Shown here in pieces: positions 15,577 to 63,521 of a stretch of DNA of 64,000 nucleotides. Position numbers and translations under genes: made by a program. The stretch's first letter is position 1. Each line of letters opens with the position of its first letter. The notes below the pieces were generated by a model. That model ran no database searches. It was not told the origin of the DNA and worked only from the letters and a program-made list of their open reading frames with translations. Source of the stretch: Kappaphycus alvarezii (taxonomy: Eukaryota; Rhodophyta; Florideophyceae; Gigartinales; Solieriaceae); NCBI GenBank assembly GCA_002205965.3, contig NADL03000648.1, positions 558,001 through 622,000 on the forward strand, given 5' to 3'.

Positions 15577-15601
15577 GACCCAATCTAACCATCCCCGGAC
15601 A

Positions 15602-33364: not shown

Positions 33365-33406
33365 GTAGGTTTGTTTGCTTTTGCGGGGAGGAGTGAGGGC
33401 AAAGTG

Positions 33407-33510
33407 GTTGAATGCTGCGTTGTGCGAGGAGCTTGCGACGACGAGCGAAGTGCGAGCGACGAGCGAGCAAAACAGGGTCCGGGGCGGAGCCCCGGGCGCT
33501 CATAGCGTCT
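33407..33510. repeat. GC-rich hairpin between the convergent Harbinger genes
   Basis: A gacgagcg-type repeat array at about 33435-33468 is followed by a strong stem-loop (ccggggcggagccccgg, 33479-33495). It lies exactly where the two transposon genes converge, so it may serve as a shared 3'-end signal. Confidence 0.5.
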
Positions 33511-33539
33511 TTTCAGTCATGTGTTCCCATTTCACTTAG

Positions 33540-34740: not shown

Positions 34741-34805
34741 TTTTCCGGGAGCAATACAAAAATGGGTACTGTCGTACCGAAATTTTTTACCGAACGGTAC
34801 TTGCC

Positions 34806-35602
34806 AAAACTCTCAATTGGTGACTAACACCTCCTCCTATCCGCATTGCTTACTTATGTAGGCCCTTTTGAGATCCATGCTTCGAGCTTTGAGCTTGTTA
34901 AATGAAGTTTGTCGACTTTTTTGGCCACTTGACCCGATACAATACAGTTTACAACATGAATAAGAGGATTTGTGAGATATACTACAGACAGAGCCATTGT
35001 AAAGCTACTACGCTGCTCCTCAAGAGCTAAGTCGGCTTCCAGGTTGAAAGGGATACTTGGACCAATTTGAGAGGACCTCCTAGGGTCCAATCATATCTGC
35101 GGTACTTCTTGTTTGCACTTGCTGAGCTGCACTGTACTGCATGCCTCGACCTGCTGGGTAGAAATCGTAGTTTGGACCGGTTGTGTTGAATTCCCAGGAT
35201 ACAACACTTTCGATGGCACCGTTCTTCACCTGATACTTCGAAGAAACAGTCATTTGGAGCGTTTTGAGGTTCATGTTCTCGGTCCATTTGCGCCTCCATG
35301 TTGGGGTCTCAATAAAACGACTGTTTTTTGGAAAAATTGAACCTACAAACTTGCGTCTTTTAGTTTTTTCGCGCACTGTACATGTGATCAGTGAGTTATC
35401 GAATAGCTAACTGCAAGTTTTTTCACATTCTGGGTAGCGTCCGCATGTAGCAGCTATGTATTTACTGTAATTATTGCCATTAGGGCAGGTCTCTGCGTAA
35501 CTCATTATCGATAAAGGTAGCGCTCGCCGATAGTTCTCCGTTACAAGTTCCACTGATTTCTCGATCCTTATCATCGACTACGCTACAATATATCGATAGT
35601 CG
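34806..35602 (-). other. Unidentified open frames beside the PRP gene
   Basis: A minus frame from ATG 35274 to 35080 encodes 64 residues (VVSWEFNTTGPNYDFYPAGRG is its most gene-like part). A second frame, 35090-34854, continues in the same direction with IGPSIPFNLEADLALEEQ. Together they read like one small protein with a frame change near 35085. I do not recognise the family. It lies about 230 bases downstream of the PRP gene on the same strand. The remainder of the stretch shows nothing. Confidence 0.3.
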
Positions 35603-38385: not shown

Positions 38386-38848
38386 CGCGCTACCAGCATA
38401 TACAGGGGAGGCTAGCAACCAAACAAGTCGCATTGGAGGTTACTGCCAATGCGAAGTGTGGCTGTATAAGAATACCTTGCACCTTCGAAACCCGTTCCAT
38501 CGCGCGGCTGGCGAAAGCTTTCACATGTTCCTTGACAACGGCGAACGCCGCCGACATCATTAGTAAAGGTGGTAGTTTTACTCATTCAATGTCATAGGGA
38601 GGGGGGACTTTGGGGTGCTTTACAGATTAGAGATGTAAGATGTAGGACCGCTATTTCCCGAGACAGGAGCAGGTGTGTATTCGAGGGTCTGAGGAGACAG
38701 AGTCAGGCGGGATTACAGGACAGTACTGTACAGTACAGTTGTATTCAAAGGCTGGTATACATGTACAGTACAGTGCACGAAATGGTTATAAATACACCAT
38801 CGGTGGGGCCCGAAAACGGTCCCTCAGTGAGGCTGCATTACTATTCAG

Positions 38849-39000
38849 TGACGGAACGTAGACCGTTACTTCTGTTTATTTTGTGAATTGTCGACGGCGG
38901 ATCGCCTTGTACTTTTCCTACTCAAGGACAGTCTGTCTTGTGTGCTTTGTCACTTGCGGTTTTGTCCAACGTTTTCTTTGTTTTCTTGGGTGCTTCGTCA
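38849..39000 (-). repeat. Copia C 3' LTR (left)
   Basis: Starts TG and ends CA on the plus strand. It pairs with 41397-41501; the two copies differ in length. A purine-rich tract on the minus strand (acaggggac) abuts its inner end, as a polypurine tract should. Confidence 0.8.
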
Positions 39001-41396: not shown

Positions 41397-41501
41397 TGAC
41401 GGAACGTAGACCGTTACCTTTGCTTATTTTGTGACTTTTCGACGGCGGATCGCGTTTTGTACTTTCTCTACTCAAGGACAGTCTGTCTTGGGTGTTCGTC
41501 A
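41397..41501 (-). repeat. Copia C 5' LTR (right)
   Basis: Shares tgacggaacgtagaccgtta, gacggcggatcgc and ctcaaggacagtctgtcttg with the left copy. The following gtcag belongs to the transposon TIR that was duplicated on insertion. Confidence 0.8.
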
Positions 41502-41753
41502 GTCAGCTGCATTTTGAAGTAAAATAAGGCGCTGAATCCGAATATGGACTCCAAGGGAGATCAAACAGAAACGGGGTTTGTTTAGAAAACCGAAAGAAAT
41601 TCGTTTAAGTACACGAAATTCTATAAGGCACAAGTTATTCAAAAGTACACAGGTGGCGGGAAAAGGGGATACGCAAGAAACTGTTTCCGCCAATAAATAG
41701 CTCAAATCCAGACCTTCCCCCCCAATGCCCAAAGCTCAGTTCATGGCATCAGT

Positions 41754-42745
41754 ATGAATCGGGGAAAGTTACTCACTAAATTTGAAAAAGGCCAGATCTT
41801 GGCCTTGCGCCATGAGTGCGTGACCGTCAGATAAATTTATTGTCGTTTGAATCGGTCCCCAGGAGCAGTCCAAGGATTTCTCAAGCGCTCGAAGGTATTT
41901 TACTCCCGCAAGTGGTCACGAAACGCAAACAAATTACGAAACGTCAAGTTCGTCGACTACTGCGAGTGGTCGCCAAGGGTGAGAAGTCAGCGAAGCAGCT
42001 CCAAAGTGTTCTTGAATTACCGGTCGGAGTTCGAAGAGTACAGTAGATATTGAATGAAGTACCGCATTTGAAGTGCAAAAAAATGTTAAAGCGTCCATCA
42101 AGGTTACAAAGGAATAATTACACAAAGCTTGGCTGGAAAAAGGAGATGCTGCAGAAAGGGCAGGAATTTTGGCGTTCAGTGGTCTTCTCGGACGAGAAAA
42201 ATTTCAACTTGGACGGGCCAGAAGGTTTAGCAAGTTACTGTCATGACCTTATGACAGATAAGCGTATGTTTTCTTCACTTCAGCAAGGGGGTATTCAGTG
42301 ATGTTATGGGTGCAATAATGTATCATGTAGTTTCGTTTTTGTCTAACTGCAAAGGCAATGTTGAATCCGTGCCGTACTGCAAAATACTTCAAGGAGTTTC
42401 TGCCAATTGAGGCGGAAAATTGGGCGAAAACTGGGTGTTTTAACAAGATGGGGCTGCTCTACAGCGCTCAATTACACGAAACATTGGCTACGTGATCATA
42501 ACGTTGAAGCTTTGGAGTGGCCGGCTAAGTCCCCTGATATAACCATTATTGAGAATGTGTGTGATTTGATGGCTCGGAAGAATTATGAAAATGGGAGGCA
42601 GTTTAAGTGTGTGAAGGACCTCACTGATACTGGTCTGGATGTGTGGGAGAATCTTAGCAAAGGTTGCCTCCACCGATTGTATGACTCGATTCCGAGGCGT
42701 CTCAATGAAGTAGTTGGGAAGAAGGGGGATGCTATGAAGTATTAG
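41754..42745 (+). pseudogene. Tc1-like transposase 1
   Basis: From ATG 41754 the frame reads MNRGKLLTKFEKGQILALRH, then a TAA at 41832, then LNRSPGAVQGFLKRSK: the helix-turn-helix pair that binds the transposon ends. The catalytic part is split between frames: SVVFSDEKNFNLDGPEG (first Asp, near 42190), a QDGAAL segment near 42446 (second Asp), and WPAKSPDITIIENVCDLMARK (third acidic residue, near 42560). The C-terminal frame 42407-42745 is open. Stops and frame changes make it inactive. The DDE order and the 'SPD..xIEN' block are typical of Tc1/mariner. Confidence 0.75.
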
Positions 42746-43014
42746 TTTTGCTTTTGTAAACGTTTCACTGCTGTGAGTCATATAGAATTTTGTGTGCTTA
42801 AACGAATTTCTTTCGATTTTCAATTTTCCCGTTTCTGTTTGATCTACCTTTACTTTGAGTCCATATTCGGATTCAGAGCCTTATTTTACTTCAAATATGC
42901 AGCTGACTAGAGATGAAGTCTCACTGAAGTACTGTTTTTGGCCCCCACCGACGGTGTATTTATAACCACTTCGTGCACTGTATATCGTAAAGAGTGTACA
43001 TTAACTGGATTGTA

Positions 43015-44568
43015 CAGTAGTGGCATTAAATATACGTCAGATGGAATTTTTAAAAGTGTTTGCTTAACTTTTAAAGGTTGAAGAATGGCGTTTTGTTTGT
43101 GTACATTATTAGCGAAGAAAATTCTATCCCCAAAGAAAGATTTTAGAAAACAGTAGTATTTGTAAAAAATTTTGCATTTTCCACAAACACCCTGGCATTA
43201 AATATAGCAACAGTTGAAGAAGCCGTTTAAGGACAAGCTGAATTTACTTGACTAACTTTTAGTAGTATATATTTCTGCTTTTGGAGTTAATAAAGCTAAC
43301 AAAGCGCTTCTGCATACATTTAACCAGCTTATCGAGCGTTTATGAGGTGACATTTCTCCACACCTCGACGATGCATTCTGTAAGAGAGTTGATATCTTCA
43401 AATTGACGCTGATGAGCATAAAACTGTCGAGCTAGTATACCGCAAAAATTTTCAATCGGATTGAGGTCTGGAGAATTGGCTGGCCAGTCCAAAACGGAAA
43501 TAGAATTTTCCTGGAGCCATTTCTTCGCCGGAATCGAACGATGGAATGGAGCAATATCATGAATAATCTGCCATTGAATAGGAAGACGTTCCGGGAAAGG
43601 AAGCAGATAGTCTTCTAGCGTCTTTACGTAATTAGTCCCGTCCTTTTTACCATGTAAAATAACAAGCGGGGAAGATTGTGTACCTGCAAAGGACACCCAA
43701 AGAATTAAACTTTCCCCACCATTTTACCTTGTAGAAAAACACTCCTTTTTTTCGAGGATCATGCCACTTGTACGCCAAACCATGTGGTACGTCTAAATTG
43801 AACTTTTTTCATCGGAACAGACGATTTGGTTCCACTTAGTGTTATTCCAAGTAACTTTCCCGGTTGCCCAGCTCATGCGAGCTAATTGATGCCTCTCACG
43901 CATTGCGGGAGTGCGGGAAATTCTCTTGTAACGAAGATGAGCTTTCTCTTGAAGCATCAAACGTACGCCCCGAGGCTTTACCGTATTTTGCAAGCCTTTT
44001 ACCAAGCCTGAATACCCCAGATTTCCTTTTGATGCTTCTCGTATTACCCTTCTTTTGATGCTCTCAGTCATCTTCGGCGGCCTACCCGGGCTTTCCTTAA
44101 TTCCATATCGGCCTGGACTATTAATAAAGCGATAGATAACATCCCGTTAGCGGCGTAGATCCCTCGCAATTGCGGAAAAACTTAAACAGTTGGAGTGATT
44201 GGCCAGTATCTGACCTTTTTCAAAATTGCTATGGGCCGGCCTTCGAGTCATCGCAGTTTTTGTTGATGGCCTTATTTTGGAACACGTTCTGCTTCTTCTA
44301 TTCGGGAGGTGTTCATTTTTATGTATGCCGTCACTTGCGAAATTCAGGTGCATTTTCCCGCGCAAGAAAGGTTTCGGTCAAAGTGTTGCTATATTTAATG
44401 CCAGGGTGTTTGTGGGAAAACGCAAATATCTTTATAAATATCACTGATTTCTGGGATAGATGTGTCTTCTCGAGTACTGTACACACACCAAACGCCGTTA
44501 TTCAACCTTTAAAAGTTTAGAAAACACTTTTAAGAATGCCATCTGACGTATATTTTTTGCCACCACTG
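43015..44568 (-). mobile_element. Tc1-like transposon 2
   Basis: TA (43013-43014) precedes cagtagtggcattaaatata and TA (44569-44570) follows its inverted copy cagtggtggcaaaaaatata, giving exact 1,554-base limits. The outer motif recurs as cctggcattaaatatagc at 43191 and, inverted, near 44387, about 177 bases inside either end (IR/DR type). Terminal repeats match along about 95 bases with few differences, so this is younger-looking than its neighbour. It starts only 34 bases after transposon 1 ends. Confidence 0.88.
43340..44251 (-). pseudogene. Tc1-like transposase 2
   Basis: From ATG 44251: MTRRPAHSNFEKGQILA and SFSAIARDLRR form the first helix-turn-helix, followed by an in-frame stop. Next comes the conserved linker GRPPKMTESIKRRVIREA and the second DNA-binding part (GVRLMLQEKAHLRYKRISR). 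Catalytic blocks are IVCSDEKSSI (first Asp), QIIHDIAPFHRS (second Asp) and WPANSPDLNPIENFCGIL (third). Between the first and second blocks the frame changes at least once (43793-43700). Length and motif order are normal; a handful of breaks separate it from an intact copy. Confidence 0.78.
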
Positions 44569-44653: not shown

Positions 44654-44938
44654 TGTCGCCCAAGTATAATGTCTCGGGACCACTTGCGCCGCAGTCTGAT
44701 TGGACCAGTTCGCTCGTACAGTATACAGTACAGTACTACTGTACACTTTACGAGAAAGAAACAGACTCGCACCTTGTACAGTGTTAGTGCACTATTGGGC
44801 ACTGTAAGGACGTAGGAACTCCGGAATGGTAGCGTAAGAAGGCGAAAGGGCTGCCGGAATCCGAAGGAAAGGGAGGGTAGGTTCCGCTTTACCACAGAAA
44901 GAAGAATAAGCAGAGTTAAAGCATTTCCTTGTACCGCA
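44654..44938 (+). repeat. Gypsy 5' LTR
   Basis: Starts at tgtcgccc and ends near gtaccgca. A sequence like a tRNA-Met primer-binding site (tggtatagaac, 44943-44953) follows four bases later. It is shorter than the right LTR. Confidence 0.75.
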
Positions 44939-47900
44939 TCCATGGTATAGAACGACGAACATGAACGATTCTACACGTTTTCTTCGACGATTACCCCTCT
45001 TCCGACGGCGCACGCTTCCTTTTCGCGTACGATAATGTAGTCATATGTGGGAAAGAGATGAAGAAAAGGCGCCCAAGCTCTTATGCCACCTCGAGGGCGC
45101 AGCGTTTGAGCGTTTCCGCGAAGCTTTTGCGCGCGATGGCAGGTTGAAAGAGGAGACAAAGGAGGACTATTCGACGGTCAAGTCCAACTTCATCGAGGAG
45201 TTTGGGAAGACTCTGAATTCGTAGGAAGGACGAAACAAGGCTATCAACGCTTGGTTAGACTCGAAGGACTTATCGGGCTCCCTGGTGCAGTTGGACGATA
45301 TATAAAAAAGAGTTGGATTCAATAATACAGCCTCGCTTCGTTTGCCCTGCTTCGGAAAGAGTGGACAGAAAACCAAGACATGGCGCATTATATGATTTTT
45401 GGAGCCCCTAAGGACTACAAGGGTCTCAGAAACGCACTTAAGGACTTTGATAGTGGACAGAAGACATTCTATAGAAAAGAAATTCAAGGATCCTCATCGA
45501 TGCAATGCCGGACAAGATCCTCTAAAGACCAGATGCTCGTGGTTCTCAGATCCTGGAAAACAAGGTGAATAAGCTGGCCGACTAGCTGAAATATCTTTGT
45601 CCGTGAAGAAACAATTCGAGAACGAAGCCACCAATGAAGACGGGTGCAGAGTATTTTTTGCAGTTATTGCAATCAGAAATGTCATGGGGCGAGCTGTATC
45701 CCGCATAATCCTCATAGAGATACTCTTTGCATAAATTGTGGGAGTAGAGGCCATGCAGAGGCAGCATGTTGGTCCAAGGACCATCGTGGTGATGATCAGC
45801 GCCACGGAGTTGCTAGGGCCCTCTCTCAGTCTGGAGAAGAGCTGAAAATGAAGGAGCCGAAGGATGATGACAAGATCACCTTTGTTCAGGAATCTCGCCA
45901 AAATGACCTTATTCCCACCGCGAAGAGAAGTGCGGACGGGGAGGCACCCCCAAAATAGAGGAGAGAGAACTTGACGGATCTTGATGCCATTTTTAACAAG
46001 GCCCCTGCTGACCGTCAGCCGATGATGGAACTCTTCCCAAGGAGGAAGAATAAGAGAGGAAAAATCAATCAAAAGAAGAACTCTGGTGGAGTCCAGGATC
46101 ATGTAAGCAAATATGGCGTGATCGATGAGCTGGCTCCCGCTGCCATGGGGATGAACTTCGGGAAAATATTGCGCGAGGGGGCTAAGGAGGCCAGAAAGGG
46201 TTTAAGGAGACTTTTATCCAAGAGGCTACCGGTAACACATCTATCGATGCTTAATTCTTGTAGAAGTCCATGTTGACCCAAGGTTGTAGCCGTGAAGTTG
46301 TATGGAACGGAAACCAACGCTCTTCCGGACAAGAGAGCAGTTCCTAACCTGATTTTCTGGGACCTCTTCCAAAAGCTCGCTCTCAACCCGACAGAGACCG
46401 ACTGTCAAGTGATGGTAGCAGACGTAACTTTCCCCAAGGCTCTTGGTCGTCCCAGTGAGTGTCTGTGCCTTACGGCTCAATGGTAGTGCACCTAGAGTTC
46501 CTGGTGGTCAAAAATTCCCCGTTTGACGTTATCATTTGAAGTACGCCTCTGGAAGACCTCCAGATGTGCATTGATTATGTACTACAGCATGTCACCTCGT
46601 TCATAGGAGAAGAAGATGTTGTATTACCATTCGTCAGTGAGTCGTCCAGAATCAATGGGGCTCAGATGAACAATGATGAAATTACGTCTACCAAAGGTTC
46701 GGACGATGAGAAAACTCTCCACCCTTTCTTGCCGTCTAGCGAAAGCGATAACGGAACGGATAACCTCAAAGACCTGGTATTAGCAATCATTGACAAGGAA
46801 CCCTACAAGCCTGATCTACTTCGCTCGGCGAAGACCGAAATTGAGAAAGAGGTGGAAGTTAAGGTGGACCGCTCGGCTATATTGGCCTCGAAGCAGGACC
46901 ACCTCGAAAAGAAGAACGAGAAGGAGCGAGCGAAAGCTCTCAAGGATATGGGTGTCATAGCTTGGGAAATTCAAGATCTGGAGCCTTCTCATGTACCAGT
47001 AGTACATTATTTCGAGTTGACAGACGAGAATCCGACACATTCGAAAACCCGCCGAACGCTGCCGAGGCATAACGAATTAGTAAGGAAAGAAGTGAAAGAA
47101 TTATTGGAAGCATGAATATTTACGCCGTCAAGGTCCGCCTGATACTTTACCGTAGTGATAGACACGAAAAAAGACGGAAGGCCCCGGTTATGCGTCAACT
47201 ACGGTCACTTGAACAGGGCGATGAAGCCAGACGGCTGGTCGTTACCGAAAATAGAAGAAAGTTTCGACGAACTCTCTTGCGCATAGTTGTAACCAACATT
47301 GGACCTTTACACAAGATACTGACAGGCTAGGATGTCCGAAACTTGCAGGGAAAAGAAGACATTTGTCTCTCGATATGGAACTTACAAGTTCAAGGTTTTG
47401 CTTTTTGGACTCATGAAAGCTCCAGCGAAGATTCAAAGCATGATGGACGAGATTCTTCGCGGGTTACCGTTTGCTATGGTGTACGTGTACGATGTTTTTA
47501 CATTCTCTAAGATGCTGGTGAAACAAATGGCTTATTGAAAAGAGGTGTTCAGGAGGATCAAAGAAGCGAAGTTGAAGCTGAAGGTAGCCAAGTGCAGCTT
47601 TGCTCAGTCAGAAGTGAAGTTACTCGGACACATCCTAAATTCAAGCGGTATGAAGGTAGATCCCGACAAGATCAAAGATATCATGGAGGTTCCTGTACTG
47701 GAGAATGTGACCGAACCCAGGGGGTTTCTAGGGCTCGCAGGATACTACTGGCGGTTCATAAGGGGGGTTTCCGACAACTCAGCAGTGTTACACGCGTCGA
47801 TGTCTGCTAAGAAGACTTTCGAATGGACTCCGGAGATGCAAGAAGCTTTTGAATACTCGAAGGGGAAACTGACTAGTCCTCTGGTATTAGCGTTTCCGGA

Positions 47901-50344
47901 CTTCAAATATCCTTTCTTAGTGGAAAATGGCGCCTCTTAGGTGATCTTTGGGGTGGTTTTCTCGCAGAAGAAAGGAGGCGGAAAATTACTCCCGATTCAG
48001 TTCGCTTCTCGAGCGATGAAAGACAAAGAGCGCCGCTACTACACAAGAGAAAGAGAAGCACGTACCGTAGTTTTTGCTCTTAAGAATTTCCAATTGTTAC
48101 TTCTGTCAAATAAGCCTTTCGTTGTCTGTAAGGATCACCAAGCCCTTCAAACCGCATTCAAGAAGAAAGATATTCGCGTGCGGTTGGTAAGGTGGATGGA
48201 ATTTATGGCGGAATACGACTTCAAGATCAAGTACAGTCCGGGTTTGGTGAATGGGGCAGCCGATTATCTCTGGCGAAGACGGAGCAAGAAGGCAGAAGGA
48301 AGGAATGATGAGAGCATAACAAATAACAGAGGGATTGGTAGCGACACTGGATTGGGCAGACCCGAAGTTGGACGGTTTGGAACCGCAATTGCTAGATATA
48401 CCATGGTTCTTGGCTGGAGAAAAGGGTTGTAGAATGAGATCCGAAGAAGAGAGTCGCAGCCAGACGGAGTGCGAATAGTTTAATGCTCGGGAACGACACC
48501 CCCTTTCGTCACGAGAAGGACGTACTCCGTTTTTTGTCTCTAATTGATCAACTCCCAGCGAGGCTGGCCACCTTTCACGATTATATTGGCGACTAGGACG
48601 TCAGTTCAAGAAGAAAATTCGTAAGAGACCGATTATGGTGGCCTGGGGTGAATCGTGAAGTCACTGAGTATGTACAAGGTTGTGATGGGTGTCAGCATGC
48701 GAAAAGGTTTCCGACATGTCATCCGAGTCTGAGAACTCCCGTTACTGAACTCTTTGAGACCTTCGCGGTGGAATTTTCTGGACCATACAAGCCTTCGAAG
48801 ACTGGAGAAATTTTGTTCTGATTGCCGTGGAACATGTGACTGGGTGGCCAATAGCTTGGGGAACGACGGACTCTACTGCCGATAAAGTGATGAGGTTCAT
48901 CGTGGAAGAGATAGTATTAACGTTCGAACCGCAAAAGAGGATCATCTCAGATAAAGCGACAGAGTACATGGCGTATTGGTACAAGAGTACATGAAAAGAA
49001 GGGTTTCGAGTGGAAGGAGGTGCTTGCTTGCGTACCGATGTCAAACGGTCGCGCGGAGAGGATGGTTCGAAGCATCAAGCATGAGCTCAAAAGGTCGGTC
49101 GTACGCGGTGGGGGTTACTCGGCAGAAGATCTCCCCAAAGTCCTTTACAATTATCGCAGACGCGACCGAAGCGACGCCCCTTCCCCTCTCCAACTGATCT
49201 ATGGGATTAATCCGAGGATGCTGGCTAGTGATTCTTTAGCATTTCTCAGTGACGCAGCAACCTATCATCGGCTTATCGAGATCTTAGGCGATTTTGAACG
49301 CCGGCTGGTGCGGCGGAGAAATCTAGCGAAAACTGCAAGGCCACGGGAAACGACAGGGAGTTCGAAATTGGAGATAAAGTACTTGTGGCGCACGGTGCGC
49401 CCTTCAATAAGGTGCGCAAGTGGCCAACATTCGACTCATATTTATATGGACCGTGCCTGGTGATTAAGGTTAGCCACCCATGCTACGAGCTTATGTCCTC
49501 CACCGGTCGCATTAAACGCAAGAAAACTCATGCGCGCCGGGTTTCCCGTGTAAGACGAGACCTACTCATTTACTTACGTAAAGAAAAGCAAGAATTTAAA
49601 CAAAAAAAGAGGAGTGGATTCAAGAACTAGAGTAGGTTGAAGAGCAACGACGGAGAATAATTCATCGTAAAAGGCTAAGTAATAAGGAAGCATGGAGAAA
49701 CACCGTAAACGTTGTGATTGAAGCTTGGAATATTAATTGACTAGGGAGCAGCACTGCTGCCTCCTTGGTATTCTCTCATCCTCCGCTCGCGCTTCCGGAC
49801 GGACAAGGAGTTACGAACAGCGCAGCTTCCTGCACTTTCGTGCAGTCGCGAGTACCGCCTTTTTGGACCTCCAGAACGTATATGAATAAAGAATTATGGC
49901 AGACACATGCACGTAGAGCTTGAGAAGAGAGTTCTCAAGCAAAAAAGTCACACGGATCCCATATCTGGCTGGTCTCAGTGTTCATCGTAACTCAGTGATA
50001 AAACACACGAGAACCCTGGATCTTCACGACATTAACCGCAACAGAAAGGGCTAAAGTCTCGTTGAGGCCCGAATGAACACTAAACACCTGATGAAGAATG
50101 AAAGAACGTGGAAGCATGCTTTTAAGCGTCTCTCAAACTTATAAGGCCACTCACGCCGCCTTTGTGGCAATATTATTGCGAAGAGGAAGACAATTCCCGC
50201 TCAAAAAAGCAAGTTGCTTCGTACAAGCCATCACTGAGGGGAGGATTGACAGCGTTGAAAAATGGATAATGGGGGATTGAAGATGTGGGGAGAAGAGCAG
50301 AAGTCGTTTCGAAATGGTTGTTGGTCGATGGAGAATAAGGCACC

Positions 50345-50452
50345 TTCGGGCGTATACCGGCCGTATAGCGGCACCATGGTCGTTCGCCTGGGCAAAAGGT
50401 TGATCGTCGGGCGTATAACGGCCGTTTAGCCGCACCGAGGTCGTTTGGCCGA
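50345..50452. repeat. Short tandem duplication before the gypsy 3' LTR
   Basis: A unit of about 45 bases starting tcgggcgtata is present twice, at about 50346 and 50408, with an intervening tgggcaaaaggttga. The two copies differ at a few places (cggccgtatagcggcacca / cggccgtttagccgcaccg). Confidence 0.75.
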
Positions 50453-50635
50453 CGGAAGTTGAGAAGATGTATGTGGTCTGGTGGCGGGTCGACATGTGGG
50501 GTAGAGAACGTGGTCTAGGAGTGAGTTGGACGGGAAGAGAGTAGATAAAAGAGCCCTTTTTCTATGATAGGGGGGCGGGGCTGGAGTCCGTTATTTCTGG
50601 TGTGGCGCCCGTGGCCCACAATGAGTAGGGGGGCG

Positions 50636-51023
50636 TGTCGCGCGATTTTAGTTTCGCGGGACTACTAGCGTCGCAGTCTGATTGGACCAGTTCGCTCGTG
50701 CAGTATACAGTATTACTGTACACCCTTTTATAGGGGCTGCCGTCCGGGTTTTCTACGTCCTTACAGTTCCCGTAAAGTATACAGTACTACTGTACACTTT
50801 ATGAGTGGGAAACTGGCACGCGGGAACGTGCGGAAAGTGGGCTCGTACAGTGCACCAGTGGTAGTGTTCAATGTACGGGCACTGAACGGGCGTAGAAACC
50901 CCGGACTGGCAGCCCCTATAATAGGGTCAAAGGTCTGCCGGAATCCGAAGGAAGGGGATGTTAAGTTCCGCTTGGCTGCAAAAAGAAGGATAAACAGGAA
51001 ACAAGCATTTCAATCTTGTTGCA
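50636..51023 (+). repeat. Gypsy 3' LTR with internal foldback
   Basis: Pairs with the left LTR over its whole length. Bases 50724-50774 and 50874-50925 within it are inverted copies (ccttttataggggctgccg.. against ..cggactggcagcccctataa), so it folds into a roughly 50-bp stem with tacagtatactgta-type words in the loop. Confidence 0.75.
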
Positions 51024-51799
51024 GACTCGTCACCCTATTTGATCCTAATTTTTTCAGGGTTTTGGATGTAAGGTGTGTTGGTGATCCTTGAAGAGTCGTG
51101 AAAACAATCATATTCTGCTACTAATATGACTTTTTTTGGTAGTTCCTGAGTTAGTCAGGTTCTGTACCCTATAGTTGCTTTTTATTATTTTCTCCAGTAT
51201 TTTAGTTATTTTTTAATTATTGTCGGCTTCGCGGCGTGTGGCTCTGGAACTTTCGGACAGATCCCAGAGTAGCATATAAACAGTGTCGGTCGTTGGTGGC
51301 GAGGGGAATGGGGACACAAGACACAGCACAGAACCCCACCTCCTTCCTGGGGTCACTTTTTCCACCTCTATCTATTCCGCCCCTACCATGGTACTCTTAT
51401 GTAAGACCTCTTCTTACGGAGCGAGTTTCGTAGCTTACGGTGGGACAGTGATGTGATGAAGTCACTATTCTTATTATTCTGCGACAATGTTTTGATAGTC
51501 GGAAATTCCAGTTAGGAGAAGAAATTATCCCTCCTAGTACTTCTCGATATAGCAACATTTAATCTAAAACTTCGGACACGATATCGACAGCCGGGTGCAC
51601 CTGATTATGTAAAGCTCATTGTAAGTGTGGCTGATCCAAATATTTCTCTATTGCTTGTCTTGATTAATTCGCATCACGGCGAGTGCCTGTAAAGTCGGCC
51701 GAGGCACGGAGAGTTCCCAAAAAGTCCTTGTGCCCGAAGGATACTCACCGCACACCCACGTAGATGGTACAAACCTCTCCGTTCTAATATTGTCATTTA

Positions 51800-52200
51800 C
51801 TGCCCTAAAAGACATAGAAAGGAAGAATTAATCGCTGAAATTTGGTTACTTTTCAGTCCTTGGTAGGTATTGCGCATAGGTCGGTTAAACCGCTCACCGA
51901 CGCCAAGGGCGTTGTGAGTCTTGATTCCTGATTTGGGGACATAAATGTTTGATAACCGACCGTCTTTGACAAAAAAAAGTCTTGAAATTTTGATCCTTGT
52001 TCCACAGAAATCTTACTGGGGAGTCCAGTGTACCAAATTGACCAAAGTTAGACAATAGTTTCCGAAACCGGTTTTCTAGAAACGTCGGCTAAGTAACTAA
52101 CGGCACTCAAACGACTATAACTATAGAAAATTTGTAAGACCGGTTCTTTATATATGTCAACGATGCAGTATCATAGTATTATTAATTACCGAACCTTTAC
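51800..52200 (-). mobile_element. Ty1/copia integrase fossil B
   Basis: Reading the minus strand in changing frames, the stretch resembles an integrase core: SYLADVSRKPVSETI, WSIWYTGLPSKISVEQGSKF and GIKTHNALGVGERFNRPMR. The last block is the same signature found in copia fossil A (PGPGERYHEPIRR), so both belong to one lineage. Only part of the integrase can be seen; the element is very old and heavily broken, and its limits are not recognised. Confidence 0.55.
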
Positions 52201-54966
52201 CGCCGACATTGACACGGAAAAGATCAGGTCCGTTTTTTTTCCGTCGGCATACGTCATACGTCGTGGGAATTTCTTGCAATGTCTTGAGTGTTTCACACTT
52301 GAGAAACTCTTGCCTTATTCATTCTAAGCGAGAAAAAATAGTAGTAACAGAAAGAGTTGCGAACTTTCGATATAGTTTCCGGAGTTAGATTCGTGTGAAA
52401 AATTTTAACATGGGGAAACACATATAAACACAAATGTGTCCGTCCGCACAATGTATTTGCAGATTGCATCCATCCACTGTGTACCTCTACCTGAACGACC
52501 GGGATTATTCTATAAAAACTCACTTAACGAGAATCCAGTCAAGATATCAGTTTTCAGGGAATGCACAAACATATCATTTGAACCTAAGAGAGCTGGAACG
52601 TCAGCCGTCACGACTTTAACCCTGATGACACTCGTTGCGGTCCCTGCCGGAGTGTGGAGACGCATTTAAATTTTCCTAAGCTAATCAAATACGTCATCTT
52701 CGAACTTGAATCTCCTGTAAATCATCTGAAGGTGCAGAATCCTGCCTCCCAAAAGGGAGAACATTTTTCTTAATTACTAAGGTTCGATGATTGGAGTATG
52801 CATCACTGCGTCAACGCCAAACTAGGGTCTTAAATTGCCGAGTTTTTCAGGAAATAATCGCAAAGCTAAGTTGATCTCATTAGCATCCTTTTTGGGCTCC
52901 TGCTTCCAAAATCTTTGATTAAGTCTTGAGGTTGCATTACGATTTAAAAGGGTCAAAATGATGGTAATTTGGTCGAGTTTTGAAGAAAAGAGGCTTTTTT
53001 TCGCCTAATTACGTTGAGAGGCAGCTTTGTCTGCTTATAAAGTGCTGCGACTACCTCCTAAGAGCGAATAAGTCGGAACAAAGTAGCAATGATGAGACGA
53101 ACGGAAATATAAATTGCGTTTTGTGCAACGCGGTCGTGTATCTCATGATAAAATAAATGAAAATGTGTTCCGTTGATGCCTAGTGGAGTTGCACAAAAAA
53201 ATTGAAGGCAGTCTTAAGTTGTGATGAACAAAAACAGAGCAGAGTACAAAAATCACAGAAACTGTTATTTGGACTCGACAGAAATTTCAGCCCATTGGCG
53301 CATAAGCAACAAAGGTGTATACAGACAATAAGGTACTGGTACTTTGCCACTGGATGGAGATGACAAGCAGATTGCTGTACGCACGCTGTCGCAGGGTCCG
53401 TACACAAGACACTTGCGCAATCAGTGCTGTAGATGTAGTATCTGCTCCATTTTCTGCCGAAGACCGGGAGAAGTTTCTTTCACTTGCCTACTCGACAGTT
53501 GGATCAATCACCGCAGCATAGCTCCCTACATCGCTGCTTTATCATCCGAACTTGACACTATATAACACTCCACAATGTTGCAGCGAACCTAGTTGCCTTC
53601 TTTGTCTGGCAACGAACGATTATGTCTCAGCGTCATTGCCGACAGAAACCCTTTGAGCGCCGACTTTTATGCACTTCGAAGTGAACCCTTAATAAAAATC
53701 AAGGGTGACATTTTGGTCCCAGTGAACCCTTGAAAATCATCTGCTCTGGATCTAATGGGCCAATAAAGGTGCGGAGATGGTTGATAACGTTGAATTTTCA
53801 ATTTAGCCAATAGCATGGAATGCGTCACTTGGCGTCTCCAAGCCTCCCGTCGTCGTTCGATCCGGATCCGATGCTTCTTTTGTTGTGGTTTGACGGAACT
53901 TTTTTTCTTCCAAGGACTATTCAGATTCGGTTCCTGATGAATGACGTCCACTCGAAGCGCCAAATTCATTCACAAACGGAAGCTTTTCAAAGCTGTAGGA
54001 CAGCTTATATAGCAGCCGGACCCAAGGGGTGCCTTTTCCAAGTTGTTCAAGAACTTAACGCTTCTCGTCCTTGATGGGTTAAAAGCTGGATTAAATGCTC
54101 ATTGGGTTTTCTAGCGTGACAAAAATAAAACATTTCCGTGGAGAACAAGAGGATTCTTATTCAATATCGTTGCAGTGCGTCTCATTCTTTGTGTCCTCTT
54201 ATTGGCGATCTTCGTGAGTAAAGCGGTATTTACTAGATCGTCTCCCATTATTCGGTTATGATACTTTATCATTTGAATTACTGTTGATCTAATTTTTTTC
54301 CACATTTAACTCAACCTGTTCACGAAGCGCGAGAATGAAGCGATGGTAAGTGTAGATCAACGATCCTATCTGACTTATAGCCATTTTGCCCATTTGTGGA
54401 GAAATTTGACTCGGAGCAGCACAGTATTCTTTATTTTCGTTCTGTGTGGTTCTATTATCGAGGCGCGGGGGTTTCGCGCTATTAAGCCTGTGGTGGCTAT
54501 TATCCCAAAAGGCGGATATAATAAAAGATGAAAAGAGGAGGATAGAAAAGGGAATTTTGATTTGGTTCTCCGTAGCGCTCTGGATCGAGAAGGCGACGGT
54601 TAATACGTAATACATACTGATGCAGTGGAAATATTGCAACCACTTCAGTATAATTGGACGAAATCTGCAGGTGTAATACTGCACTCATCATTACCCCAGA
54701 AATATATCTACAGCCATTGCATTACACTGACTTACTAGCAGTAGGTGAAAAATAGAAAGACCACCTACCGAAAAAAACAAAAAAAAATACTGTTGAATAG
54801 GGAATCTCAACTTCACTATATTGCAGCTCTCCACGCATAATACCGTGGACGCTGGGTATTTGGGCCAAATGGCATAACTAACCAGTCGAACTACATTTCA
54901 GTACTAATTCTACCCGTATTTACTCATTATAGGAATATTCTAGTTGCAACCTAGGTGATGTAACTA
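52201..54966. other. AT-rich tract without recognisable genes
   Basis: Frames are short (below 131 codons) and lie on both strands with no recognised motif. Some of the left side could be further debris of copia B. A short duplicated coding-like word (ctgtagatgtagtatctgct, 53431) resembles one near 8574 but is too short to interpret. Confidence 0.35.
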
Positions 54967-55059
54967 CAATTGGCGAGCTTATATTACTTTTTTTATTTCC
55001 TAATTCTATTGCCTTTCTTAGGAAAACTGGAACAATTTTTGGTTAACTTCACGGTTTAA
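54967..55059 (+). pseudogene. cob: 3' end of mitochondrial cob (nuclear mitochondrial insertion)
   Basis: In one frame the stretch reads QLASLYYFFYFLILLPFLG then KLEQFLVNFTV and a TAA. This is the end of cytochrome b: the final transmembrane helix of the family reads roughly 'GQLAS..YF.yFl.l.Pl.g..E'. The match begins abruptly at 54967: the expected IG before QL is replaced by codons including a stop, so only the last 30 codons are certain. The stop lies inside a perfect palindrome and a mitochondrial-type tRNA follows at once, so the piece was copied from mitochondrial DNA and is not a working gene here. Confidence 0.72.
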
Positions 55060-55115
55060 ACCAGCTTCAAGGTATGGTCTATATTATAGACCATACCTTG
55101 AAGCTGGTTTAAACC
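55053..55115. repeat. Perfect 31-bp stem with one-base loop
   Basis: Bases 55053-55083 and 55085-55115 are exact reverse complements around a single T at 55084. It lies between the convergent cob fragment and trnL, where florideophyte mitochondrial DNA is, to my recollection, known to carry a stem-loop linked to transcription start or stop. Confidence 0.95.
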
Positions 55116-55117
55116 AC

Positions 55118-55202
55118 TATGGATGGAGAGATTTGAACTCTCACTATTTAAAAAATAATTAGAACCTAAACCTAACACGTCTTCCACTTCCGTCACACCC
55201 AT
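55118..55202 (-). tRNA. trnL(uag): tRNA-Leu(UAG), mitochondrial type
   Basis: On the minus strand, 85 bases fold as a type II tRNA. The acceptor stem ATGGGTG/CATCCAT pairs fully (one G-T). The D-arm has the organellar Leu pattern TGACGGAAGTGGAAGACG. The anticodon stem TTAGG/TCTAA encloses the loop TTTAGGT with anticodon TAG. A long variable arm (TATTT/AAATA) follows, then the T-arm GAGAG-TTCAAAT-CTCTC. Discriminator A precedes no encoded CCA. Every stem is intact, so the transfer to the nucleus was recent or the region is conserved. Its neighbours and AT-rich form say mitochondrial origin; it is unlikely to serve the cytosol. Confidence 0.88.
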
Positions 55203-57919
55203 AATTAATTCCGAATTTCCATAAACTTTACAATTTTGCCAGGACTTCGTGCTAATTGTATCTCTATGCGTTGTTTTTTTACAAAGATTTCTGTAGTTTT
55301 CGGTAATTTCCTAATGCACCAAATGTTAAGCTCAGACAATATCCCCTTCCGATGTGTGAGATAAGAAAACGTACACCCGAAAATTATGGCTCGGGTGAGG
55401 TGATATTGTAATAAATAACTGGAGATTTAAAAAGCATATGAAAAATTAACTGTCTCATACGAAGCGATCTTTCTTCAACCACAGTTGAACAAGTCAAAGC
55501 GTAAGAGCGGTAGTGTGACATAATTAATCTGTGAATTTACACCCAATAATCCCCCCTCTCTCCCATAAAAAAGCTGTATAATCAACATGTTTCCAGACTG
55601 AAAATATACAGAAGCCTTCAACTCGCAGACATTTCGGGCTTTTTGTCATAATCAACGTAATATGGAAATCTTTTTTTGATCCAATCTCCCGCAAGACCGT
55701 ATCACTTGCATCCACTTTCATTCACCAACATATGAGAGAATATCGTGACATGCTGTCCACTAAGATCATTGATGGTTTCACAAATCCACTTACCAGGAAC
55801 CATATTGGGTCATCCAAGGGCCTTTCCTCCCGTTCGGAATTGTAAATGAAGCAAATATTTCCTAGAATCACCTCAAATCTCCTGTACTACATGACCTTTC
55901 CAAAGCTTGGGCCTGTAATGTACTTCTGCTCAGTTTCATTCAAAATGTCACTGCGGCTTGAGAACTCCAAAGAACTTCAATTTATCTCCTGGCGAAACGG
56001 ATTATATTCCAACGGCATCTAATTCCACATTCGTAAATAAATGCATAAATCTGAGCTAAACGAGCAGAATCATACCAATATATCATTCAAATGGCTATTA
56101 ATTTCAATGAAGAAGCGCAGATATGCGAGGATTAACAGAGTAGCCAATTATCTTGCAGCTATTTTCGGAAACATTTCATAAATAGGTGTGAATACCTCCG
56201 GATTGGTCCTTACTTACCTGGTGTGAAATTGCAGTTTCATCTCATTGATGCACTGTGGATTCATCTTAGTCCCTACCTGAGGCGTAAAGAGACGATTGAA
56301 AAGCATATATCTCTTGGTTTTCAAGTTGTTTCGGAATTTGAGCTTGTTTAATCTCCTCTTCAACGTCTGTTGGAGGTCAAAATTTTCTAATTTTGACAAT
56401 TTTAAACTTAAAATTCTTGAAACGGCCACATATATCCCAGCTTCTTTCCACTGAATTCCTCTCTCGCGCACTTACAATGTCAATATGAACGGCAAAAAGG
56501 GTTCCAGAGACCAAATTCGTTTTCCAAGCGTATCGCTATAAGCGTTTGCATTCCGCTGCTGACATAACAAGTAAATGGTTCCAATGAATTCTATTTGCTG
56601 AAATGCTTCGTGAATCAATTTTTTGGGAAGAAGGCAGAATTGAAGGTTGCCTCGTCAAATAAGGTTGTTTCTGTGCTGCGCAGAGTTGCAGTTCTCGAAA
56701 CATTTGTTTTTATTGAGTATCTGCATGTTTAAAAAAGAACCTGGAACCGGAAAAATAACAAAATATTACCTCTTAAATACTAGCTGTTAAACATTAGACC
56801 AATAATTCCACACTTATTTCTCAATTTTTCGGAGGTAAATATTCCCACGTTAGCACAACGGTGCAAATCGTACTAATTATGAGTAGTTCACACTTAATTT
56901 TCTTCGTGCAAGGAAGCAAAGATACTAACCGCATTTCGTGTGATTCTGACGGGAAAAATTCGAGGGCGACGAAAAATCAGGGACTGATCCAGCGATGGCA
57001 CCGTCGCGCTAGGCCCTTCCCTTAGGGAAATCAAGAAAATTTAGATATGGAATTCAACCTAGTCCTCGCATTGAGGAAGTATTCCTTTCGCAAAAAGCCC
57101 TCCTTTCTAACCCCCAAACCCTTTCATACCTTACAACTCCGATGCAACTGTCCCTCCTTCTGCTACCCACCCTACCAAATTTTCCTATCGGGAGAACTTA
57201 CTCATCCTATATGACACCGAATTAACATTGTTCTTGAACGTGCCTCCTCATAACCTTCCTACAACTGTTATCATATATGCTTCTGAACTTCGGAACACTT
57301 CTAGTAATCATTCTTCCAATCCGTTTGCCGATTCCGTCGTCAAAACCTACTGGGCTTAACGTATACAGCTCACGCTGCAACTGTGACGATAAAAATTATA
57401 GAGCCGCTCTTTTTAGTTCTTCACATCACCGTATTCCTACACAGCACCGTAACATAAACTTCCCAGCTCATCCATATTCATACTACAACAACGTGTACCT
57501 GTAAACCTCGTGGCAGTCCCTGCACTCTTACCTATATTGGCTGTGCTGTACCACCTCTACCATCTATCAATAGGGTATTCCTGTACCTCATTCAAAGGCT
57601 GCAGACTGTCTTAGATAGACACGTATATATATAGGCTTTATCTACACCAGCCCGAACACTTTTAAGAACCACAATGTATATGGGAAATTGCAGTTTCCAG
57701 TCAAAAGCCCGTTTCAAGTTGATTTAACAAATTCACGCATATGCACTTCTGCAACGGCATCCTCCAAGTCAGCCTAATATCCCTGGAACATTCTTTTTTT
57801 CCCTGACTGCACCAGCCTTCAAAGTGTAGCATGGGAAGATCCGAAATCGCTGAAGTTCTGTCCGAGAAAGGCGTCCTGCTGGACGATCTAATATAAAAAT
57901 AGGCGTACAATCAGAATCA
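55203..57919. other. AT-rich tract right of the mitochondrial insertion
   Basis: The first 200 bases may continue the mitochondrial piece: the minus strand holds GYCLSLTFGALGNYRKLQ and a stop just upstream of the tRNA, which looks protein-like, but I could not name it. Beyond about 55.45 kb nothing is recognised; frames are short and lack motifs. The segment 57050-57560 is C-rich and pyrimidine-biased, unlike its flanks. Confidence 0.35.
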
Positions 57920-58385
57920 GTCAAGCAGGCTAAAAAGGAACAGACCGATGCGGAGAAGAAGTTGGTGGAAGCTGGGAGAAAAAAAGATCAAAATCTATAC
58001 AACGGAAGAAGAAGGATAAAGATTCCAATGAGAAGTCCTGCAATTAAAAAGAGAAGAAAAATTAGGAAACTGTCTCAGATTGGTTCGAGACGCACAAAGC
58101 AGAAGTGATGGGGCCATCTAGAAAAGGGAGGAAACTGATGAAAGAACATTGCGGATGAACTAGGCCAAATGAGCTCGAAAATTATAGACGGGGAAAGCAA
58201 GGAGAGATTTGAAACAACTCAGGATGTAGCAGAGCGACCCATATGCTTATATGAAGCTAGTTTCAAATTGAATTAGGAGAGAGAGAAACGCCTTGTAATG
58301 GATAAAAAGTAACGCGAACAGCCGAGGAATCGGAATAAGGTGACTATAGATTTGATGATCAAAATGATTAGCAAGCTTTGCTGAT
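57920..58385 (+). pseudogene. Possible second relic of a Harbinger Myb-like protein
   Basis: Plus-strand text reads VKQAKKEQTDAEKKLVEAGR (57918 on), close in form to AADKDAELVTAGEKVRD of the Harbinger protein at 32.9 kb. A Lys/Arg-rich segment (PAIKKRRKIRK) follows. After more charged sequence comes REQPRNRNKVTIDLMIKMI, resembling the final helix. The order charged linker, nuclear-localisation-like patch and coiled-coil end agrees with that family. Several stops and frame changes are present. No transposase or terminal repeats were found nearby. Confidence 0.4.
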
Positions 58386-60297
58386 GTTTATTTTAACGAG
58401 TTATTTAGATTAAAGTAAAAAAGTGTGGTTTATCAAAGGTAGAAGAGGTCATATACGGAGCCCTTGTGAAGTTGCGGGAACGCTTACATTGAGTGTGCCC
58501 CCAATGGAAATACGATGGCGTCTGCCCACTTTTTGCAATGCACATTAGAATGTTGAAAACTAGAACCGCATTCTTGTCGATAAGGCCAATGCGAGCTTTA
58601 TATACCTTGGTAATGTGATTAAAATTGTTCATCGTTAAAATTTATTTGATGTACTTTTAGCTCCATTCCACGCGCAACGCGGAAATCCTGCAACTGCACT
58701 CTACTTGATCCCTTTTCGTGCAAATACGGCCAAAAAGAGGCTGCATAGAGGGCATAATGAGATAGGAACAATCACCAAAGATGTAGAACTGCCTTCCATT
58801 GATTTCTAAGCTCTCATTAAGATGATTTTGTAGGCCGCCCCTACACAGTAACTTGGGATCGTGCTTATTACCTTCCTGAGGGCAATAAAACAGAATATAA
58901 AACCGTCTAGAGTAGAAACAGACTTATAAATGAGGCAGTACATACTCCTGTGGCCAGAATAGGAGCTACATTGCATAATTTCGCACTCCTCATGGCGTAC
59001 CATTCTGATTTTCGTACAATGTATGAAGCGCACGGGCCTTTCCGGAGGGCATCCTTTCCTTATAAAAGCTTCGGCTTACAGAGCTGCTCTCGCCTGCACT
59101 AGATCGCCGCGAAAATTAAAAAAATCCCTCACTCGATACAAAATGTTCTACCATCTCCTACAATATCTCGGTAAGTTTTGAGGATCTGCATCCAAACTAA
59201 AACTGAATATCTTACTTCAGCTTTGGGCTTGCCAATCCTCGAAAAACAATGCAGAAAGTTATGATTGGATCGCGATAGTATCTGCAACGTCTTTTGGATG
59301 CCCTCCATTTTCATGAAAATTAAAAATGTAGCGAATATCGCTCTAGAATGTAGACGAATTTTCTTCACATCAACTTCGAAACAGGTTATTTTTCGTCTTG
59401 CGAATAAAGCCATTTATAGGTCTTCGTTGATAAATGCTGGTTGCACGTATACCAACCATTCATTCATGTTTTCTACAATTTAGGAAGAGCGTTCATTGTG
59501 CTACTGCATGTCGTAGACCGTATTAAGATTACGATTTTGTGATATTCACTCGTTCACCAGCGGAGAAGGTGGCGTAGGAACGTCCTGTTGGGTCCAAATT
59601 CGAGAACAGAGCGTGCTGTTGTACTTGTGATGCGGGCTGAAGTAAGCAGGGACAAGGTTTACAATATAGGACGAACTGGGGCTAATAAATTTTTAGTATA
59701 AACGTTTTCTTCTATTAGTCACATCAAATTAGAATTTCCACCAAATAAGAATTTCCTCGCTTACTTTTTTTTTATTTTTGTAGTGGGCTTAATTTCGTAA
59801 CAAGCGGACGAAGCACTGAACTTGGCAGCAAATCGAGAAAAAGTTTCTCGCGAAAATATGTTCTCTTTTCTGATCGCAAAATAGAACTCGCTCTCGTCAT
59901 TTTTACTGCTGTCTTCTATGCTACAATCCACCTAACCTTCGCCCCCAACAAACTCGACACAATCCACTCTGTTGACGAGCACACCAACTTGACTGACCTG
60001 ACCGACTACCTTTCACGCCTCTTCCTATTTCTTGACAGCCTCCAATACTAAAGCTCAGTATCTTTTAACGCGCACCCACTCCAACCACAAGATTTCGTTT
60101 ACTTCGTTCACTTCTGCACCGATCTCAGCTCTCCCACTGCCTCAAACGCTTACAAAAAAAGAAAAGACTTCGTCGGCCGAAAGCGTGCTCTTATAAAAAA
60201 TACCGGCTGTGGTGTGGAAAGCAATATACAAGGGCTTGATCGAGTCTATGTGAGCCCAATGCGCGGCTAGAGCTGCATTGTTCGATGAGAAGGATTT
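58386..60297. other. AT-rich tract without recognisable genes
   Basis: Short frames on both strands lack domains. A pyrimidine-rich segment at 59880-60170 resembles a promoter or untranslated region but leads into no gene I can see. Confidence 0.35.
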
Positions 60298-60422
60298 GGG
60301 TCAGCTGTGGTAAAAAATATTCCCAGGTCGGATTGTATTGCATACTGCAAGTATTGCATACTGCAAGTATGCAATACAATCCGACCTGGGATGGGAAAAG
60401 TTTTTACCAGAACAGCTGACCC
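60298..60422. repeat. Small foldback element
   Basis: The left arm begins gggtcagctgtggtaaaaa and continues with cccaggtcggattgtattgc. The right arm (to 60422) is its inverted copy with two small insertions. The centre is a direct repeat, tgcaagtattgcatac / tgcaagtatgca. The whole, 125 bases, is a foldback or miniature inverted-repeat element. Confidence 0.85.
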
Positions 60423-61978
60423 AGAAGCCTTTCAAAAGTTTTCCCTGCAAAGTAATGATGTGATATGACGTATCAGAAACACTGACACTATTACCAAGAA
60501 GAAGATGTCGAAATTTAGGGAACATCTCGCAAACGGCTCCGTAGTCTTCGATATAGGCGCAAAAGCCGAGAGAAGCGCAGGAATCAGCCATACGTGTAGC
60601 ACAGACTCTAAAAATCAACGTTAGAAAAAATTATAATTGGTATAGAATGCTGTCAAGGCCGTATCAAGTACGATTGAGATGATTGAGACGAAATCTTCTG
60701 ACTTGACACATGGTGTACAGGAGCTGACTAAACTGCAATCCTGCAATCCGAAGACGTCAAAAAACCTCAAGACGTTCTTGAACTTCAGTTCCGTGTCCTT
60801 GGGTTGCAACGGCGTCATTATCGAGGAAACCGCCTGAGGTGTCCAATCTACGGTATTTGTTTTGCAGAGATGTCAAAAAGGGGTGCTTTTTTCGTTCCAT
60901 AGAGATGTTGCCGGTGCTTACCGAACTAAAAATTATGTCTATACAGTTCCAAATGAGTGAGCTGACTGCAGTTCTCAGAAATATTCGGCCGCGATTGCAT
61001 AGAAAGATGAAGCGCCTGATGCTACCACGAAGCTAAAGTGTGTTCGCCAAAAATCTGAAACTCTATCGCGAGAGGACAGTGTATATTTTCTTTCAGCAGA
61101 TAAAGCAAGTACCTCATGGGTATAGTGGCTGCGTAAATCAATAAGCGGTCAGATAAATTGACATAAATCCTCCAATTCCCCTGGAATATTTGATAAGATT
61201 GCTTGGTCGATATATCTTGAGATCAAAAGGTTTACGGAGTAGTCGCCGGTTTAATCTTTCTACATGTCGTCCATCAGGAGCGCTAAAAGCTGCATAACTG
61301 AACTGCGTACCTTGAAGAGATTCATGGCGTGCGAATTTATTGCTATCGATGTTATTATGGTATGCGGTAATTCATCGTTGATTTCCTAACTGAAGTTGCA
61401 ACCAGATAGAGAGCGCGGGGGAAAGAGTGAATGAATCTGAGGGCGGCACGGGGATTGAGATTGAAGAGAACAGAAGGAGTGGCTGAATTTTTCTGTGGGC
61501 GGTGCGAGGATCACGGCGGAGTAGGGTAGGTGAGGCGGGAGCCAGACGAGGTTGGGCGCGGTGGGAGGTGGGCACCGAGGGAAAGAAAGCGGAAAATGGG
61601 AGGACCAGTTGGTGGGACGGAATACACAGGAGGCCAGCAGTGTTCTGGTCGGGAGGTGATTATCAGCTTCCAGCAGAAGCTCGGGTGCCGGAACTTACCA
61701 GAATACTAGAAAGACCTCTGTTTGGAGGTTTTTTTGAGTTTCTTCAAATAGGCGATGTTAAAAAAATTGATTAGTGAAAACTGGCAGTACCAATAAACTG
61801 CTAGTTGACAAATTTGTCTACTTTCGGCGAGGTCTACTGCACCGAAAATCGTATTGCTGAAATCCTCAAATATCCTCAAAATAGGACATTGTTCCGAAAG
61901 AAATTAGCTAGGAGGTAACTAGGTGTTCCACGTCGGCCACGTGCAAACAAAATGCGTGAAAAGACACAAAGCGTAATA
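60423..61978. other. Spacer before Tc1-like element 3
   Basis: No recognised coding domain. The stretch 61420-61700 is GC-richer and carries a 90-codon plus frame (61502-61774) and a 67-codon minus frame, neither with a motif. The words cgtcggccacgtgca (61931) and cgtcggccacatgca (9582) are shared with the left end of the LINE, too short to interpret. Confidence 0.35.
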
Positions 61979-63521
61979 GGGTGCGGAAACTCGTATATGA
62001 GCACCCCTCTTTTTTATGGTATCTCCGGAAAAACTTTGCTATTAAATCTAAAATATCGTAATCGCGTTCTTTTTCATGTTTATTTAAAACATCAAAAGAG
62101 TTTCCAATAAACCTAATGCTATTGATGAAATTTTGAAAAAGGCTACCAAGAAGGGGGAAATTCGTTTGTGAGCATCCTTCGTTAAACTGATTTTATACGG
62201 AAGGACGTGAGCAAATGAAGTATTTTAGTAGTCTACTTTCTTCCCCTGGCTCTCTAAAATTGCCGCACACTGGTTTTGCATGCTTTGAGCGAGCTTGTGA
62301 CACACGTCGCAACTTATTGTGTTCCATTCAACCAAAATGCCATTTGTTAGAGCATCCAGGACCTCTTATTGTCGTACATCGTGATAAACCTTGCCGCGAT
62401 AGTACGGCTCATAAATTTTCAATGAGATTAAGGTCCGGACTTCGAGCGGCCCAGTCCAAAACGGAAATATTTTTGTCGTCAAGAAGTGACTTAGTTACCG
62501 CAGCTGTGTGAATAGATACTTTATCCTGCTGAAATTTCCAATTTCCAAAGAATTTAGAGATTGAAAAGGGCAAAAAAGCCTTCAATGTCTCTATGTACTT
62601 CTTTGCATTCTGCTTTCCAGACAAGATAATCAATCTACTTATACCATCCTCACAAAAAGCTCCCCAAACCATCAGGCCTCCATCTCCCATTTACTGACGA
62701 CAAACCACCTTTTTCGCTCTCTTCAACTCATGCCAGTAAAACATCATCCCGTCAGGACCATCCAGTTTGAACTTTTTCTCGTCAGAGAAAACAATTTGTC
62801 TCCACTGTTGAGGTGTCCATGCGTGGCGCTTTTGGGTCCATCCCAATCAATATTTCTTGTGCGCATCGGTCAACAGCGGGGTTTAGTTTATCTTCTGATA
62901 TCCCAAATGGCACTGCGAGTTCAATATTGTGCGAATACGCCTCGCAGAAATTTTCAGTTGAAGCGAAGATCGCAACTGAGATGAAGATAAACGTTTTTTG
63001 GGTGCCTCTCGAACCAAATCGTGGGGGGTTCTGTTGTCGATTTTTGTATTGCCCCTAGTGTATAGGTTCTTGCCGTATCCACTCTTGTCCCTCATGTATT
63101 TGCGCGAACTGTGTTAGCGCTGTTGTTGAGGTTTTCCGCTATTTTGTTGCTGCTGAATCTCTCTTTTTCGTAAAAGTCAATTTGCTCCCTCTCTTCCTCT
63201 GTCAAAAGTGTCCCTCTTGTCATTTTTTGCTCTGAGTTTGGCTGAGGAATTGAGCAAGTGTCCAAGAAAGTTTTTGAGCTGGGATCTGCTCACGAAGAGA
63301 AACAATTGAGAGGTAAAAGAGAATGTTCACATACGAATTTCCCCGCCTTTGGTAGCCGTTTTGAAAGATTTTATTTATAAAATTCATTACTTTAAAACCC
63401 TTTTGCTCCTCTATACAAGCCTGGAAAAGGATGCGGATGGTACATATTTAGATTAAATTGCAAATTATTTCTCGAGATATCATTACAAATGGGGGTGCTC
63501 ATGTACGAATTTCCGGCACTG
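61979..63521 (-). mobile_element. Tc1-like transposon 3
   Basis: TA (61977-61978) precedes gggtgcggaaactcgtatat and TA (63522-63523) follows the inverted partner cagtgccggaaattcgtaca. Both repeats run on with atgagcacccc. A second copy of the motif, gaaattcgtttgtgagca (62157) and inverted near 63325-63345, lies about 177 bases inside each end, after a shared block (ggctaccaa). This is the same IR/DR plan as elements 1 and 2, with different sequences. Length 1,543 bases. The minus strand carries the transposase. Confidence 0.85.
62400..63223 (-). pseudogene. Tc1-like transposase 3
   Basis: From ATG 63223: MTRGTLLTEEEREQIDFYEK and FSSNKIAENLNNSANTVR, the first helix-turn-helix, then a stop (TGA near 63092). 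A second DNA-binding part (SSSQLRSSLQLKISARRIRT) follows in another frame. Catalytic blocks: IVFSDEKKFKLDGPDG (first Asp, near 62780), then after a stop MGDGGLMVWGAFCEDG, a KFQQDKVSIHTA segment in the place of the second Asp, and LDWAARSPDLNLIENL (third). At least two stops and two frame changes are present. The end after IENL is missing or diverged. Confidence 0.75.

Follow-up and report, generated by a model that had tools for sequence, protein, structure and literature searches.

A probable nuclear insertion of red-algal mitochondrial DNA from the cob-trnL-nad6 junction in Kappaphycus alvarezii

How the end of a cytochrome b gene (cob), a perfect palindrome and a tRNA-Leu come to lie side by side in transposon-rich DNA of Kappaphycus alvarezii is the question raised by this locus. 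The window, the whole stretch of 64,000 nucleotides that was analysed, is C644:558001-622000 in an assembly of 336,021,096 bases and 884 contigs. Comparison of the sequences indicates that window 54966-55280 is very probably red-algal mitochondrial DNA inserted into the nuclear genome (NUMT). The features are as follows.

50872 to 54971, plus strand: left nuclear flank, colinear with the C658 paralogue (84.8% over 4192 columns)
54966 to 55280, no strand: mitochondrial part of the probable NUMT, 92% (291/316 columns) to the C530 copy; breaks of the C658 paralogue at 54971/55288
54967 to 55059, plus strand: last 30 codons of cob and TAA stop (translation, table 4; the C530 copy extends upstream into PF00032)
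55053 to 55115, no strand: 63-bp palindrome, 31-bp arms with a 1-nt centre (arm search, fold), counterpart of the cob-trnL hairpin
55118 to 55202, minus strand: tRNA-Leu(UAG) with long variable arm (ARAGORN, Rfam, Infernal alignment)
55205 to 55280, minus strand: last codons of nad6, stop at 55205-55207 (the C530 continuation partly matches PF00499)
55288 to 63485, plus strand: right nuclear flank, colinear with C658 (85.9% over 8250 columns), holding a many-copy repeat

The mitochondrial part is about 315 bases long. On its plus strand, 54967-55059 translates under table 4 as QLASLYYFFYFLILLPFLGKLEQFLVNFTV followed by the stop, the cob end that the first-pass annotation had recognized, and the TAA (55057-55059) lies within the left arm of the hairpin. 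In the C530 copy, a PF00032 match (50.5 bits, cut-off 20.7) is found upstream of this cob tail. Directly upstream of the tRNA and on the same strand, a second frame ends in KIVKFMEIRN before its stop codon (55205-55207). We call it the nad6 tail because the longer C530 copy runs into a partial PF00499 match (30.5 bits, below the 33.2 cut-off). The extent first given for the mitochondrial slice, 54967-55202, rightly took in the cob end, the palindrome and the tRNA but stopped about 80 bases short, missing the nad6 tail, as the mitochondrial part runs to 55280. The order is cob forward, hairpin, trnL reverse and nad6 reverse, i.e., convergent.

Between the hairpin and the nad6 tail, ARAGORN called a tRNA-Leu at 55117-55203 on the minus strand, the only tRNA it called in the window, and the Rfam tRNA model matched 55118-55202 on that strand with 43.2 bits (gathering score, 29). 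Its anticodon loop, TTTAGGT, gives the anticodon UAG, in line with the tRNA-Leu(UAG) first proposed for the opposite strand. The tRNA stems had also been described as intact, and no pair is flagged as non-standard in the Infernal alignment; this statement rests on the covariance model because the minimum-energy fold of the tRNA strand gave no cloverleaf and stayed within the ordinary range (z, -1.40). The palindrome is as perfect as first described, with arms of 31 nt each (55053-55083 and 55085-55115), 100% complementary and 1 nt apart, while five mononucleotide-shuffled versions of the window had longest arms of 8 to 9 nt. It folds at -52 kcal/mol (z, -16.4), and none of 200 shuffles did as well.

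A mitochondrial origin is indicated by the cob tail, the nad6 tail and the tRNA-Leu(UAG) standing in published mitochondrial order, with the C530 copy linking the fragment to PF00032 and, below the cut-off, to PF00499. The account of the Kappaphycus malesianus mitochondrial genome describes a 47-nt hairpin (-34.73 kcal/mol) between cob and trnL1, at the junction of two opposed transcription units (PMC10013388). The window palindrome lies between the same two genes, at the same place and between opposed transcription units, but differs from the hairpin described there in its size (63 bp), its folding energy (-52 kcal/mol) and its nuclear location. In Gracilariopsis lemaneiformis, as described in PMC3386957, cob and nad6 lie on opposite strands and a hairpin beside trn-Leu forms a complete inverted repeat at a transcription boundary, where it was proposed to end transcription. 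The window palindrome is likewise a complete inverted repeat at a transcription boundary near trn-Leu, whereas the G. lemaneiformis hairpin is put at 21 nt (at 42 bp in the figure legend) and is placed between trn-Leu and trn-His; according to the same text, the larger stem-loops of three red algae share no visible homology (PMC3386957). The cob-hairpin-trnL arrangement thus fits the published hairpin position in Kappaphycus, which upholds the coherent mitochondrial gene order seen at first pass, and the clue it was thought to give to the host lineage points to red algae, the order and the convergent orientation agreeing with what is published for K. malesianus and Gracilariopsis mtDNA. From this we infer a florideophyte red alga, Solieriaceae-like, as the source organism, and the insert supports placing the window in such an alga.

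The nuclear location of the fragment is addressed by a paralogue of its surroundings on contig C658, which is colinear with both flanks and lacks the insert. The match to this paralogue ends at window 54971 and starts again at 55288, the gap being 12 bp in C658 and 316 bp in the window, so that the stretch without a C658 counterpart is 54972-55287. The nearest flanks match it at 84.8% (53363-54971) and 88.7% (55288-56998). Colinearity on both sides of an insert-free site favours a nuclear insertion over mis-assembly, and on these flanks (85-89%) the nuclear insertion first proposed stands. At the left edge, the window reads GTAACTACAATT and C658 reads GTAACTCAAATT, while mitochondrial-type copies read AGGACAATT or AGTACAAT; target and mitochondrial end match imperfectly. 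No target-site duplication was seen at the insert, which is weak evidence because two larger stretches absent from C658 (32164-34815 and 38771-44566), serving as controls, also lack a clean one.

The duplication that includes this site is long. Window 29502-64000 is colinear with C658:1496200-1519200 in pieces of about 82-93% identity with gaps, and possibly beyond, the comparison starting at window 29.5 kb with the start of the C658 stretch compared and reaching the window end. Three larger window stretches are missing from the C658 stretch, at 32164-34815 (2.7 kb), 38771-44566 (5.8 kb) and about 44928-50871 (about 5.9 kb), which means that the window copy gained, or C658 lost, several segments. 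A retrotransposon reverse transcriptase RNase H domain (PF17917, 77.1 bits) lies at window 47941-48432, inside one of the C658-absent stretches. Window 55456-56755 is a repeat, probably of a large family: among the best 40 of 324 candidates, at least 39 further rows besides the window and C658 match the query 55290-57290 at 69-73%. The many-copy repeat in the right flank and the RNase H domain agree with the transposon-rich surroundings noted at first pass.

A search of the assembly with the insert and adjoining flank gave 17 matches, four of which are pieces of the mitochondrial stretch on other contigs: C530 (291/316 columns, 92%), C508 (186/191, 97%), C840 (62/62) and C697 (38/42). The other 13 rows comprise the window itself, three inverted matches of the palindrome, two to the C658 flank and seven flank rows on other contigs, the last being 38-45 bases long at query 657-701. 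Larger queries returned at least 32 matches for C530 and at least 26 for C508, with short pieces of the neighbourhood apparently on many more contigs. Two changes in cob, both synonymous, and three in the hairpin set the window insert apart from the C508 copy, and C508 and C840 carry the tRNA only in part. At about 860-2060 of C508:685442-688630, an apparent mosaic NUMT joins a cox1 piece, a cob-hairpin-half-tRNA piece and other mitochondrial pieces. Searches with the insert DNA, cob and nad6 found no mitochondrial contig in the assembly, and a 35-base exact pattern from the tRNA had 0 matches in viral_contigs and 0 in genome_contigs. Open COX1 frames, 564-759 codons long, lie on contigs C546, C562 and C580, the first and last of which also carry COX2; these contigs of the assembly are possibly bacterial. 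A mobile element, suggested by the look-alike left edges of C530, C508 and the window, was rejected: C530 and C508 continue upstream into cob, and the shared left edge is therefore the window's own end only.

Algal DNA preparations are rich in organelle DNA, and a fragment of an organelle read could in principle have been joined into a nuclear contig during assembly. Such a chimaera is very improbable here. Chimaeric reads would be expected to join at one side, whereas the 316-bp insert is flanked on both sides by colinearity with C658; the insert also departs from the C508 copy by the cob and hairpin changes given above, and comparable fragments match many contigs.

Read as a NUMT, the locus suggests the following history. 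A mtDNA fragment of about 315 bp, taken from where two transcription units converge (cob against nad6-trnL(UAG), with the hairpin between), would have been captured at a nuclear DNA break, probably by end joining, with about 12 bp of the target lost and a short stretch at the left end matching imperfectly. The insertion would have taken place well after the duplication behind the C644/C658 pair, leaving the tRNA and the gene ends still intact. Divergence of the near flanks from C658 is 11-15%, while the tRNA shows 0 changes in the 62 bases shared with C840 (P = 0.008 at 7.5% decay per lineage, presuming that both paralogues decay at the same rate and that the tRNA pieces come from a single mitochondrial source). 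Such conservation is improbable at duplication-age decay, so the insert is probably younger than the duplication, a young age being also the best explanation for the intact tRNA.

The tRNA bears on one further explanation, that the insert is retained under selection for a nuclear function, e.g., as an expressed tRNA-Leu. Its alignment without a non-standard pair would fit such a role, as would its A box, which departs from the canonical pol III consensus at 1/11 positions; the B box departs from its consensus at 3/11 or more. Between the window and C530, 1/85 tRNA positions differ against 24/227 in the other parts of the insert (Fisher P = 0.004; right-junction changes from 55281 on and 2 unchanged spacer bases excluded). 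The C530 cob carries two internal TAA codons, which means that some C530 changes are nuclear decay. A tRNA that was slow to change while still in the mitochondrion, ahead of both transfers, predicts the same contrast and best explains it. With the B-box mismatches and the partial tRNA in C508 and C840 added, a selected nuclear function is scarcely credible; nothing about the intact tRNA requires a nuclear role, and the insert appears to lack function.

The hairpin exists in several versions. In C508 it has 28-bp arms and a 5-nt loop (-47.9 kcal/mol), and in C530 it is a 61-nt version with mismatches (-27.4 kcal/mol). Two bases of the window hairpin, G at 55076 and C at 55091, are absent from C508 and C530 and occupy nearly mirrored places in the two arms. 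These added bases can pair, since the 63-bp palindrome sets 55076 opposite 55092, which like 55091 is a C. In C530 the facing sites 55061 and 55107 carry T instead of C and A instead of G, respectively. As far as the sequences tell, the G/C insertion pair of the window and the change from a C-G to a T-A pair in C530 are compensated arm changes; other arm changes in C530 lack a compensating partner, as expected from decay. The hairpins of the window, C508 and C530 may, as a tentative and somewhat doubtful reading, be fossils of successive states of the mitochondrial hairpin whose arms changed in concert, although a test would need more than three copies and the window version could reflect a symmetric sequencing error. 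If so, either selection or palindrome correction would keep the two arms of the mitochondrial hairpin complementary, and NUMTs would let its changes be dated.

The hairpin was also considered as a preferred point of transfer and rejected as a hotspot, since coverage of the C530 reference by NUMT pieces shows no peak there. Among the matches listed, the two hairpin bins have a mean depth of 2.0-2.7, less than the bin starting at query 301 (3.9) and those starting at 851 and 901 (4-5). These depths count 28 of 32 listed rows, with the C530 self row and the three inverted-palindrome rows dropped, on a reference that is itself one NUMT and with some rows weak (identity down to 75%).

The locus is a real but ordinary NUMT, and NUMTs have already been surveyed in red algae. 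That survey compares them across 14 red algal species and describes insertion by non-homologous end joining (PMC10250338); like the cases it describes, the present one consists of a mitochondrial fragment in a nuclear contig, with no difference in kind from that description. Relative to the cases described there, an insert-free paralogue that fixes the limits of the NUMT is its own feature. A literature search, with most subscription journals outside its coverage, found no paper that by its title dealt with the K. alvarezii nuclear genome, and none on NUMTs in Kappaphycus. The nuclear copies could serve to study how the hairpin at a mitochondrial transcription boundary changes over time, and they could mislead PCR-based mitochondrial markers at cob-trnL. 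Elsewhere in the window, at 13685-20093, adjoining reading frames carry enzyme domains: GT8 with GT64, an LCAT-like domain, GT90 and an FkbM-type methyltransferase.
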